From positions 1-64,000 of the forward strand of contig JALONM010000032.1 of assembly GCA_025454925.1 (NCBI GenBank): 64,000 nt of DNA, in the 5' to 3' direction. Both the position numbers and the translations under genes were made by a program. The notes under the pieces are model-generated. The model was not told where the DNA came from. It ran no database searches and saw only the letters and a list, made by a program, of their open reading frames with translations. The DNA is from Cytophagaceae bacterium (GTDB lineage: Bacteria; Bacteroidota; Bacteroidia; Cytophagales; Cytophagaceae). How positions within the stretch are numbered: position 1 is the first letter of the stretch; every line of letters starts with the position of its first letter. Positions 23,052 to 39,090 of this stretch are shown piece by piece.

Positions 23052-25949
23052 ATGAGATCGAAAATTACTACTACCTTATTGCTCATCATGTTAATTCCCA
23101 ATATGGTGCAAGCACAACTGTCTAGAAACAACACCCGCAAAAGCGTGGTTTACCGGAGCAACTACCAGCGCATGGTGGCCGGTCCATCTTCTAATTCACT
23201 TTTTGAAATTCGTGAAGGAAAATTATACGCCGTTGGATTTAATGCCATGGGTCAACTGGGTATTGGAAATACCACAGACCAGTCTACTCAGGTGCAAGTG
23301 GGAACGGACAATACCTGGGTGCAGGTGAGTTCGGGTTCTACAGCTGCCAATGGCATAAAAGCCAATGGTACGCTTTGGCGAATGGGGCAAACCGGCGCCG
23401 GCAATTCCAATACACCAGTTCAATTGGGAACCGACAATAAATGGGTGTCGGTGACAACAGGTGGAGATTTTGGAGCGGCCATTAAATCCGATGGCACCCT
23501 GTGGACTTGGGGAACCAATACGTATGGTCAACTGGGTGATGGCAGTAATACGAATCGCTCAACGCCTGTGCAGGTTGGAAGCAACAGCGATTGGGTGGCG
23601 GTATCGGCCGGAAATTTTTTCTGCATGGGATTGCGCGCGAATGGTACTCTCTGGACTTGGGGATACAACAACGTAGGTCAGTTGGGCGATGGCACTACCA
23701 CCAATAAAAACGTTCCGACACAGGTGGGTACCAATGATAACTGGCAATACATCAGCTGCGGAAACAATTTCAGTATGGCCATCAAATCCGACGGTACCTT
23801 GTGGGGATGGGGCAAAGCTACAGCAGGGCAAATCGGAGGAGGAGCCATTGTGGATCAGACCTTGCCACTACAAATTGGAACGGATTCCAAATGGGTAGCG
23901 GTGTGGTGCGGAAGCCAGCATGCGATAGGTCTTAAATCCAATGGAACTCTTTGGGCAAGCGGCGCCAACGGCAACGGACAACTAGGCATTGGAAATACTA
24001 CCACACAGTACTCGTTTACTCAATTGGGTAGCGATCAAGATTGGGTAGCTGCTACCGCCGGATCTTTTCATAGCGCTGCCCTGAAAGCCAATGGTAATGT
24101 ATATTCCTGGGGAGCCAATAATAAAGGCCAGTTGGCCATCGGAAGCATAGTACAGCAAACAGAGCCCGTATTGGTGAGTGCTACTTTTTCCGAATGGATT
24201 TCAATTTCCAGTGGAGAAACGCACGCGCTTGGCATTCGCTCCAGTGGCACCTTATGGGCTTGGGGAAAAAATGAGAACAATCAATTGGGCGATGGTACAA
24301 GCACTTCGGCAGACGGTCCAATACAAATTGGCACGGACTCCAACTGGATCTCAGTAAGCGCCGGATATCAGCACTCGCTGGCATTAAAATCGAATGGTAC
24401 TTTGTGGGCTTGGGGAGAAAATGCTGACGGACAACTGGGCGACAATACCTTCATCAACAAATCCACTCCCGTACAAATTGGTACGGATGACAATTGGGTT
24501 TCCATCTCTGCCAATAACCAATATTCATTCGCAATAAAATCCGACGGTACCCTGTGGGCTTGGGGTTCTAACACTTCCGGAAAACTGGGCGACGGTACGA
24601 ACTTCTCTCGAAAAGTGCCTACTCAGATTGGTACCGGTAATACCTGGAATTCTATTGATGGCGCTACTTCGCACTCAGTTGCATTGATGACGAATGGAAC
24701 GCTTTGGATCTGGGGAGATAATTCTTCCGGAACGTATGGAAATGGAACTACCAATTCGGTAAGTACACCTACCCAAATTGGCTCCGACACGTGGTTTGCC
24801 TGCAGCGCTTCTAGTTTGAATACGCATGGAATCAAACCGGGAGGAACCTTTTGGGGAACCGGCTGGAATACTTTAGGTCAAATCGGCGATGGCAGCAATA
24901 CCAATCAAACCAGCTTTATTCAAATTGGAAGTGATACCAAATGGATAGCCATGTACAAGTATGCTACTTCCTTCGGGCATGCTTTAAAAACCGATGGTAC
25001 GCTTTGGGGATGGGGAACCAACAACGATGGGAACCTTGGAACGGATGATACGAATATTCGATTTACCGCTGAACAAATTGGTTCCGAATCCAACTGGATC
25101 AGTGTGGTAGACGGTAATAATTTTGCAGTGGCTCTGCGTACGTTCCGCACGGAATATTGCGCTACTGGAAATAATGCACATGGACAGTTGGGCACTTATA
25201 CCACGGGCAATGTCAATAAGTTTACTTGTATTTCCTGCGTAAAGCCTGGCATAGGCACTATTTCTGGTGCGGCCTCCATTTGTGAAAATGGTACCGATGT
25301 ATTTACTGTTCCTCCGGTATCGGGCGCAACTGGCTATACTTGGACCTTAGCAAGCGGATGGACAGGGACCTCTACAACCAATTCCATTTCGGTCACAGTC
25401 GGATCAACCGGTGGTACAATTTCTGTTGTAGCTGCCAGCAGTGCTTGTGGAAATACTCGCAGCAGTTCCAAATCAGTAGCGGTGGTTACGATAGATAAAA
25501 CCGTAACATTCGCGAACGATATTTTAACAGCCGTTCAGTCTTCTGCTACGTATCAATGGTTGGATTGTAATAATTCTGAAAACCCGATTAGTGGCGAAAC
25601 CGCACAATCATTTCCTGTAACGGCCCTGGGTTCTTATTCGGTAGAAATTACCTACAATGGATGTACGGCAATTTCCTCTTGCTCCAACATTACCACATTG
25701 TCTAATCTTGATGCTGAGGAGTTGAATTACCAGCTCTATCCTAATCCGGTAAGAGATCGTGTTACTCTTTCTATGGTGAAATCTTCCACCCTGGAATTAA
25801 TCAATGCGCAAGGTTCTTTGTTGCAAACCCTGGACCTGTCTTCCGGTGAAAATTCCGTGGATGTATCCACACTAGAAAATGGAATATATTTTATCAAAAT
25901 TATTTCAGGTTCAGAAATTCAAACAACCAGCCTGGTGGTAGCCCATTAA
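23052..25949 (+). CDS. Secreted RCC1-repeat protein with PKD-like domain and T9SS sorting tail
   Basis: A 965-residue exported protein. After the signal peptide (ending MVQAQ), residues about 55-730 are some 14 RCC1-like units of about 52 residues, typically GTLWAWG-x-N-xx-GQLGDG with a TPVQIGTD-NW link; 14 units could make two seven-bladed propellers. Residues about 735-870 contain Cys-containing PKD/Ig-like beta domains (TVPPVSGATGYTW). The final about 80 residues are a type IX secretion sorting domain (YQLYPNPVRDRVTLSM, then ENGIYFIKI), so the protein should be exported to the surface or medium. Binding partners are unknown. A terminator follows. Confidence 0.92.
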   Translation: MRSKITTTLLLIMLIPNMVQAQLSRNNTRKSVVYRSNYQRMVAGPSSNSLFEIREGKLYAVGFNAMGQLGIGNTTDQSTQVQVGTDNTWVQVSSGSTAANGIKANGTLWRMGQTGAGNSNTPVQLGTDNKWVSVTTGGDFGAAIKSDGTLWTWGTNTYGQLGDGSNTNRSTPVQVGSNSDWVAVSAGNFFCMGLRANGTLWTWGYNNVGQLGDGTTTNKNVPTQVGTNDNWQYISCGNNFSMAIKSDGTLWGWGKATAGQIGGGAIVDQTLPLQIGTDSKWVAVWCGSQHAIGLKSNGTLWASGANGNGQLGIGNTTTQYSFTQLGSDQDWVAATAGSFHSAALKANGNVYSWGANNKGQLAIGSIVQQTEPVLVSATFSEWISISSGETHALGIRSSGTLWAWGKNENNQLGDGTSTSADGPIQIGTDSNWISVSAGYQHSLALKSNGTLWAWGENADGQLGDNTFINKSTPVQIGTDDNWVSISANNQYSFAIKSDGTLWAWGSNTSGKLGDGTNFSRKVPTQIGTGNTWNSIDGATSHSVALMTNGTLWIWGDNSSGTYGNGTTNSVSTPTQIGSDTWFACSASSLNTHGIKPGGTFWGTGWNTLGQIGDGSNTNQTSFIQIGSDTKWIAMYKYATSFGHALKTDGTLWGWGTNNDGNLGTDDTNIRFTAEQIGSESNWISVVDGNNFAVALRTFRTEYCATGNNAHGQLGTYTTGNVNKFTCISCVKPGIGTISGAASICENGTDVFTVPPVSGATGYTWTLASGWTGTSTTNSISVTVGSTGGTISVVAASSACGNTRSSSKSVAVVTIDKTVTFANDILTAVQSSATYQWLDCNNSENPISGETAQSFPVTALGSYSVEITYNGCTAISSCSNITTLSNLDAEELNYQLYPNPVRDRVTLSMVKSSTLELINAQGSLLQTLDLSSGENSVDVSTLENGIYFIKIISGSEIQTTSLVVAH

Positions 25950-26045
25950 ACCGACTTTTCTCAATAGCAAAATCGCTGCGGAGAAAGAATAAGAGTCTGG
26001 TAGTAGTTTTCAGAGTATCGGATTTCTGATCATTCTGGAAAAGTG

Positions 26046-26074
26046 AAAAGAGGAGCTTTGGCTCCTCTTTTTTT
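26046..26074 (+). terminator. Rho-independent terminator of the RCC1 gene
   Basis: AAAAGAGGAGC, loop TTTG, GCTCCTCTTTT then T. An 11-bp stem flanked by A and T runs, so it could also act on minus-strand transcription. Confidence 0.88.
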
Positions 26075-26090
26075 AACCGAAATTTCCACA

Positions 26091-26250
26091 TTGAATTTCT
26101 ATTGAAAAACGACTACTAAAATCAAGGGCTTCAGAAGGAATCGAATAAAAGAAATTCTTTTCTAAGTCGGGATTACCGGCCATGGATCTACGATCCATGA
26201 GCTTTCTCCATAGAAGCGAAGCGCACTATGGAGAAAAGCGGGATAAAAAT
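26091..26250. repeat. Composite palindromic repeat, copy A
   Basis: Shares its left part (attgaaaaacgact with aaatcaagggctt, then aagaaattcttttctaag) with copy C near 38.82 kb, and its right part (gatccatgagctt, aatagaagcgaag-type loop) with copy D near 39.05 kb. It contains two hairpins: CATGGATC-TAC-GATCCATG (26181-26199) and GCTTTCTCCATAG...CTATGGAGAAAAGC (26201-26239) with loop AAGCGAAGCGCA. No open frame. It sits between the convergent RCC1 and DUF2306 genes, right after the terminator. Confidence 0.75.
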
Positions 26251-38556: not shown

Positions 38557-38564
38557 TGAGTGAT

Positions 38565-39090
38565 TCTCAATAGAAATTCTTCTATTGAAAAACGAAAATA
38601 AAATCAAGGGCTACATAAACATGGCTGCCATGGAAAGGATTGGGGCGTGCCCCGGCGCTTCGCTTGGGTCGGGCTATCGCTGCAAGCCCTTGGATGCGTG
38701 GTGGCGTGGCGCCTAAAGCGCCATGCCACCACGCATCCAGGCTTTTCGCTCTATCCCTCACGCAACGGAAACACTTAGTTGCCATTCATTCCAGTTTTCT
38801 TCGTAGAAATTCTTCTATTGAAAAACGACTAATAAAATCAAGGGCTTGAGAAGGAATCGACTAAAAGAAATTCTTTTCTAAGCCCATGATTTTCTAAGTC
38901 GGCTCCATAGTACGCTTCGCTTCTATGGAGAAAAGCCGGTTAAAATTACTATCGCTTCAGAAAGAATTGGTCCAAAGAAATTATTTCCGCTACCCATGAT
39001 TTTCTAGGTAATGATTAGCTGCCTTGGATCAGCGATCCATGAGCTTTTGCAATAGAAGCGAAGTACACCATTGTGAAATTCCGGTTGAAC
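38565..39090. repeat. Cluster of composite palindromic repeats (copies B, C, D)
   Basis: Three units lie in tandem. B begins near 38567 (tagaaattcttctattgaaa) and has a core insert at 38637-38775. C (about 38803-38940) repeats the same start and continues aaatcaagggctt, agaaattcttttctaag, then a stem CTCCATAG...CTATGGAG (38903-38930). D (about 38945-39085) is a weaker relative of C with ATCAGCGATCCATGAGCTT and loop AAGCGAAGTACA. They match copy A at 26.1 kb. In C the hairpin loop is the reverse complement of that in A. There is no coding capacity. Confidence 0.75.
38637..38775. repeat. GC-rich multi-hairpin (REP/BIME-like) core in repeat B
   Basis: A run of hairpins: GGGGC-GT-GCCCC (38642-38653), GGGC/GCCC about 38671-38689, and a large stem GGATGCGTGGTGGCGTGGCGC / GCGCCATGCCACCACGCATCC (38692-38712, 38718-38738; one mismatch, loop CTAAA). 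The outer GCGTG...CACGC ends may close the structure. Direct copies of a 40-bp AT-rich segment flank it (38571-38612 and 38806-38847). The base composition differs sharply from its surroundings. Confidence 0.65.

Follow-up and report, generated by a model that had tools for sequence, protein, structure and literature searches.

The window, a 64,000-nucleotide stretch of a Cytophagaceae draft genome, holds copies of a dispersed repeat that share a hairpin but carry its loop in opposite orientations. In copy A the hairpin was CCATAG-AAGCGAAGCGCA-CTATGG (26208-26231) and in copy C it was CCATAG-TACGCTTCGCTT-CTATGG (38905-38928). The CCATAG-gap-CTATGG pattern had two matches in the window, those of A and C only, with a shuffle mean of 0.08. 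Over 70 nt of their left parts, A (26097-26166) and C (38813-38882) were 96% identical in the same orientation, signifying that the loop, and not the unit, is inverted between the two. A third copy, D, had the loop AAGCGAAGTACA (39056-39067) oriented as in A, and A 26158-26247 matched D 39000-39089 directly, with 76% identity over 90 nt spanning the hairpin. On these points the preliminary description was accurate. The copies and their parts are listed below, with loops called canonical or flipped according to their orientation in the family.

26077..26242, + strand: copy A, MITE-like element with a flipped right loop, flanked by TTTAA (26072-26076) and ATAAA (26243-26247)
26181..26199, + strand: middle hairpin of copy A, CATGGATC-TAC-GATCCATG, with the canonical loop TAC
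26204..26235, + strand: right hairpin of copy A, 10-bp arms TTCTCCATAG/CTATGGAGAA, flipped loop AAGCGAAGCGCA at 26214-26225
38792..38939, + strand: copy C, canonical loop TACGCTTCGCTT at 38911-38922, without the middle hairpin
38951..39084, + strand: copy D, a diverged partial copy directly behind C, flipped loop AAGCGAAGTACA
38564..38610, + strand: left-end fragment of a further copy, with the left hairpin CAATAGAA-ATTC-TTCTATTG and part of the body
25946..25967, + strand: TTAAACCGACTTTTCTCAATAG, a right-end-like sequence standing alone, which overlaps the stop codon of ORF 23052-25949

The ATAAA at the right side of copy A is one letter off TTNAA. Copies C and D both ended in CCGG, followed by TTAAA (38940-38944) and TTGAA (39085-39089), respectively, and a different repeat followed the fragment at 38564..38610. 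Copy A was overlapped by no listed ORF of at least 80 aa. An ORF neighbouring the repeat copies had a T9SS sorting domain, and one window protein had its best named matches in Saprospiraceae, Chitinophagaceae and similar groups (51-59% identity), which places the organism in the Bacteroidota.

The preliminary description had left room for these being the only copies; ATAGAAGCGAAG alone occurred 83 times in the source genome, a draft of 4.52 Mb in 135 contigs. A genome search with 26070-26250 gave at least 94 matches (40 of 272 candidates scored). With up to three mismatches, the core body word occurred 100 times and the middle hairpin 145 times. The family profile was built from 14 aligned copies, and the consensus had 191 columns, partly TTNAA flanks. 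In the 0.43 Mb (429 kb) examined we counted at least 171 body-bearing copies, defined by at least 40 body columns and an E value of 1e-4 or better, and kept non-overlapping by a rule in the script; 91 of the 171 were near full length. Further copies may exist elsewhere in the genome. The family is non-coding, ~185 bp long and dispersed, in agreement with the non-autonomous element proposed earlier. Two of the copies were 97% alike.

A search of 38 relatives gave two weak matches alone (G005 and G031), which on inspection did not look like copies; none of the relatives listed was of the same genus. Among 390 genomes of the order, searched at E 1e-5 and with no more than two candidates scored in each, the source genome alone matched and none of the 389 others did. 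The exact core pattern (24 letters, one of them N) had no match among genome contigs, in a search that may omit the source genome. The element family has so far been seen only in this species.

Three hairpins were recognized in the element, with the loops ATTC (left), TAC (middle) and TGCGCTTCGCTT (right), and the consensus read AACCCTAATTTTTCAATAGAA-ATTC-TTCTATTGAAAAACGACT...GGCCATGGATC-TAC-GATCCATGAGC-TTTCTCCATAG-TGCGCTTCGCTT-CTATGGAGAAAAGCCGGTTTA. The ends, CCCTAATTTTTCAATAG and CCGGCTTTTCTCCATAG, each adjoined TTNAA. The terminal inverted repeats, CCCTAATTTTTCAATAGAA on the left and, as reverse complement, CCGGCTTTTCTCCATAGAAG on the right, were related but imperfect. TTNAA was present on both sides in 52 of the 91 near-full copies, and in 36 of these pairs the N was identical (16.9 expected; 0 of 20,000 shuffles as high), making a TTNAA target duplication probable. 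The N was unequal in the other 16 pairs, three of which border a tandem copy directly behind. Among copies with <5% divergence it was unequal in 6 of 23 pairs, exceeding an assumed 10% arising from mutation (p 0.023).

The element looks like an undescribed MITE, a fit given by the imperfect inverted ends and the TTNAA duplication. It is short (within 50-1000 bp), has no transposase gene, carries terminal inverted repeats next to a probable target duplication and occurs in many dispersed copies. Presumably the family was spread by a transposase that has since been lost or that went unrecognised. Tandem copies were found at 38792-39084 in the window and on C75, C80, C4 and C59. In the latter four, one TTNAA alone separates the end of a copy from the copy that follows, an arrangement that would result if new copies inserted at the edges of old ones. 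On C34 (C34:29313, stretch L169 ~2314-2365), TTGAA and TTCAA enclosed a hairpin-only miniature of ~46 nt that resembles a fusion of the two element ends.

Loop orientation was scored strictly, with at least 9/12 letters for the loop and at least 8/12 for the arms. By these limits 99 of the 171 copies were scorable, 90 canonical and nine flipped. One of the nine, C87:42127, was a canonical hairpin read from the other strand, beside a degraded inverted copy, and was dropped, leaving 90 canonical and eight flipped (n=98). The eight are C1:2, C123:142980, C25:71633, C131:26065 (copy A), C66:41340, C131:38951 (copy D), C135:3020 and C89:33917; in four of them the exact loop stood between arms with 12/12 core letters. 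Most scorable copies had TGCGCTTCGCTT or a close relative as right loop. The genome-wide listing of orientations suggested in the preliminary description did return both, but the framing had to be corrected: C has the usual form, and A and D are the exceptions. Looser limits gave 106 canonical and 10 flipped copies (n=116, C87 included).

The other two hairpins were scored on the profile, using rows with at least 110 columns. The left loop was canonical in 113, reversed in one and unclear in five (n=119), the reversed one being diverged and doubtful. For the middle loop the numbers were 102, three and 20 (n=125), and for the right loop, scored in the same way, 111, eight and two (n=121), these eight including the C87 row and the diverged C40. 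The middle-loop reversals read GTA twice and GCA once, exact reverse complements of TAC or TGC that differ from them at all three positions. Flips were more frequent at the right than at the left hairpin (8/98 vs at most 1/119; p 0.0015 with none and 0.012 with one), yet the left hairpin has the longest arms. Loop length as the reason for this difference is our guess. The right and middle hairpins did not differ significantly (8/98 vs 3/125, p 0.063). The scoring rules differed between the hairpins in these comparisons.

The likely explanation is that A and D belong to a MITE-like element with TTNAA duplication, and that their loops were flipped by template switching during replication, as a spacer inversion. 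The nascent strand would leave its template within one arm, use the opposite strand to copy the loop, at times together with further sequence, and return through the other arm, so that the 12-nt loop would end up turned round in place. We infer that the event occurs at the replication fork and that the flip has no function; a programmed switch is unlikely. The sister strand and a reverse-oriented other copy cannot be told apart as templates by sequence alone. Of the marks of template switching, we found exact reverse-complement loops between intact arms as well as recurrent independent events. Extended arms accompanied the flip at the right hairpin and were not seen to do so at the middle one.

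Predicted folding energies of the single-stranded DNA were -13.6 kcal/mol (z -6.3) for the right hairpin of copy A and -7.8 kcal/mol for its middle hairpin; the left hairpin of another copy gave -9.0 kcal/mol. Copy C, which has lost the middle hairpin and part of an arm, gave -6.3 kcal/mol for the right hairpin (z -1.6; 15 of 200 shuffles as good).

Two flipped copies recorded more than the flip. In C123:142980, GAGAAAAGCCGG beyond the right arm was replaced by GAGAAAGCTCATG, which is what lies outside the copy's own left arm, in reverse complement. A brute-force script, which tried all single two-switch events on the consensus joined to the copy's own flank, reproduced C123 exactly by one event with a copied stretch of at least 29 nt. 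The terminal CCGG is absent from this copy, indicating that the event most likely followed insertion. Copy C1:2 starts at a contig end; besides the flipped loop it has a left arm carrying the CTTTTC of the right arm, and here too one event suffices.

The exact 12-nt loop, with the middle hairpin upstream of it, was present in 45 copies. Right-hairpin arms that were perfect over at least 14 bp occurred in two of the five flipped copies of this set and in none of its 40 canonical ones (Fisher p 0.010). Perfect short arms did not differ significantly between flipped (4/8) and canonical copies (27/90, p 0.26). At the middle hairpin, extended arms were found at C47, C87:44685 and C114:8829, none with a clear flip, and a flipped copy on C104 had ordinary 8-bp arms. 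Rewriting and flipping were thus not coupled there, and this slightly lowered our confidence in template switching. Right-arm pairs showed no covariation beyond shuffles (for the most promising pair 7 vs 4.1 expected, with a maximum of 10). Left-arm pairs did covary (24 compensated vs 7.8 expected, and 20 vs 8.6), which may reflect a few subfamilies, as relatedness was uncontrolled in the test.

Flips have arisen repeatedly and independently between copies of one genome. In a tree of 111 copies, of which 105 were labelled and from which the loop columns were removed, six flipped copies needed six changes; shuffled labels needed 5.9 on average, so there was no clustering. Five of these six were the best-kept among the eight strict flipped copies, and the sixth was the diverged C40:6612; C87:42127 was kept as a canonical row. 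Bootstraps gave 6-6 changes, and the starred branches force at least five, with support values that had not settled. Sorted by divergence, there were no flips among the 39 copies with less than 5%, four among the 28 at 5-10% and four among the 31 above. The median divergence outside the hairpin was 12.3% for flipped and 6.1% for canonical copies (one-sided p 0.02). Both the absence of flips from the least-diverged copies and the higher divergence of flipped ones point toward slow mutation behaviour and not toward a switch in use. Canonical copies were on average 8.3% from the consensus; very roughly, there would be one flip per hairpin per substitution per site.

In line with the preliminary description, a scan of five window proteins near the copies recognised no transposase. 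Four large transposase families, IS1380, DDE_Tnp_1, rve and Tn3 (PF13701, PF01609, PF00665, PF01526), gave no match in the genome at E 0.001, though it carries a high-copy element; control genomes gave matches for each of the four. In the 429 kb a single pair of inward-facing ends lay 250-5000 bp apart; its spacing was 388 bp, and it belonged to one copy split by a different repeat. Fifteen of the first 100 isolated right ends listed were inspected; several were small or truncated relatives, and no transposon was recognised in ~300 bases of each. Y1_Tnp was represented in the genome by two fragments only. One is a RAYT-like reading frame on C54 (L033 1-660), which appears truncated and whose stop coincides with the start of an element copy. 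The other, on C61 (L034 890-1460), has TTGATGC..GCATCAA palindromes on both sides, possibly a REP-like repeat belonging to that fragment.

The left-arm covariation, the four absent transposase families and the 16 of 52 unmatched N would together fit a bolder reading, in which a mobiliser outside the families searched spread the family, chooses TTNAA and may read folded ends. We regard this reading as unlikely. An unmatched N would fit a joining that retains a donor flank base, as opposed to pure gap filling.

Other processes could leave a loop inverted between its arms. At an enzyme-driven invertible site, a site-specific recombinase would flip the loop in the style of phase variation, which agrees with both orientations being present in the family and with the intact arms in 4 of the 8 strict flipped copies. 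A live switch should, however, come near balance and show in young copies, and we found 8/98 flipped overall and 0/39 among the least diverged. Flips also occurred at the 3-nt loop of a different hairpin, two flipped copies had a rewritten arm or flank, which a conservative recombinase would not leave, and a spacer of only 12 bp would hardly allow the DNA to form a loop between recombinases bound at two sites. Such a site is very improbable here. Of the earlier proposal that the arms can flip their loop, the repeated and independent flips stand, and the enzyme site is left unsupported by the low proportion, the unflipped least-diverged copies, the middle-hairpin flips and the arm rewriting. 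The same evidence gave no support to the other proposal, construction of the units from mobile parts. Gene conversion or ectopic recombination with an opposite-oriented copy, with entry and exit within the palindromic arms, draws on the many copies on both strands and on the TTNAA pairs with unequal N, a hint that copies exchange sequence to some extent. But 10-bp arms are too short for RecA-type recombination, and the flips at the 3-nt middle loop count against it too. So does C123, whose rewritten stretch is the reverse complement of its own arm-adjacent flank, although that flank is family-wide and another copy could have been the template. We consider this route unlikely.

A single-strand element of REP/REPIN or IS200/IS605 type, moved by a Y1 transposase (RAYT), would also be palindromic and of high copy number; one of the two Y1_Tnp fragments ends at the start of a copy, and the left-arm pairs covary. 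Against it, a target duplication is indicated here, and Y1 transposition is not known to make one. The element is ~185 bp long with terminal inverted repeats, the C54 frame looks cut short at the copy start, and the C61 fragment is flanked by different palindromes. A REP/REPIN would lack a target duplication and have a resident RAYT flanked by the repeat, and this combination was not found. We give such an element very little credence. An assembly artefact, with the palindrome traversed in the wrong direction, could arise in a draft of 135 contigs, and the flipped C1:2 begins at a contig end. The seven other strict flipped copies lie inside contigs, including the two in the window, and the arms are shorter than usual assembler word sizes. 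An artefact is hardly credible.

Small inversions in hairpin loops are known from chloroplast genomes and, as generally described, resemble the flips reported here, but they lie in an organelle and at single loci. The IR spacer inversions outlined in PMC8604942 and PMC8794818 are alike in their reverse-complement loops, short perfect arms, recurrence and sometimes homogenised arms, and inter-strand switching has been proposed for them. According to the outline in PMC8604942, template switching led to such inversions in yeast genes only with arms >9 bp; the perfect arms of our element are mostly 11 bp in exact copies. The loop inversions described for rRNA include bacterial examples (PMC8794818). 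The outlined cases change 2-5 bases in yeast genes, and typically 4 nt, with some of 7-8, in rRNA, compared with a loop of 12 nt in the element. Unlike them, the element is a dispersed bacterial repeat, with the same hairpin sampled ~100 times in one genome.

As a mobile element, it resembles the BrickBuilt MITE of Porphyromonas gingivalis, outlined in PMC4596501 as a short, non-coding Bacteroidota element with terminal inverted repeats. BrickBuilt has ends like those of resident IS5-family elements and ~19 copies per strain (PMC4596501). By comparison, we found no partner for our element in the transposase families and stretches searched, its target is TTNAA and its copies are far more numerous. 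With the REP/REPIN and RAYT systems outlined in PMC3733652, PMC2817692 and PMC3116915 it shares high-copy palindromic repeats. It is longer than the 20-40 bp given for REPs (PMC3733652), and differs from what is outlined for REP/REPIN by its terminal inverted repeats, its target duplication and a genome with two Y1_Tnp fragments only. Judged by titles and abstract openings, we found no published description of this element. The family appears to be new; its kind and the mechanism of flipping are already known.

This mutation class is known, by the outlines in PMC8604942 and PMC8794818, from yeast genes and rRNA alignments. A high-copy hairpin element offers a natural repeat experiment, with ~100 copies of one 12-nt loop in a single genome. 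The flips can be scaled against ordinary substitution, which would give an in vivo measure of the template-switch inversion rate. A palindromic repeat with its loop inverted does not by itself imply a switch.

Near the element, Rfam gave sraA (32.9 of 56 bits) and Flavo-1 (27 of 42 bits), both under the gathering score, and at five other loci nothing reached gathering level. The Flavo-1 match concerned a second dispersed repeat and was too weak to assign it to that RNA. This repeat lies at 38642-38765 in the window (GGGGCGTGCCCC..GGGTCGGGCTATCGCTGCAAGCCC..hairpin..CCCTCACGCAA), was also found in stretches L161, L166, L171 and L033, and several times adjoins element copies. By eye, its inner hairpin stems vary among copies yet stay palindromic.
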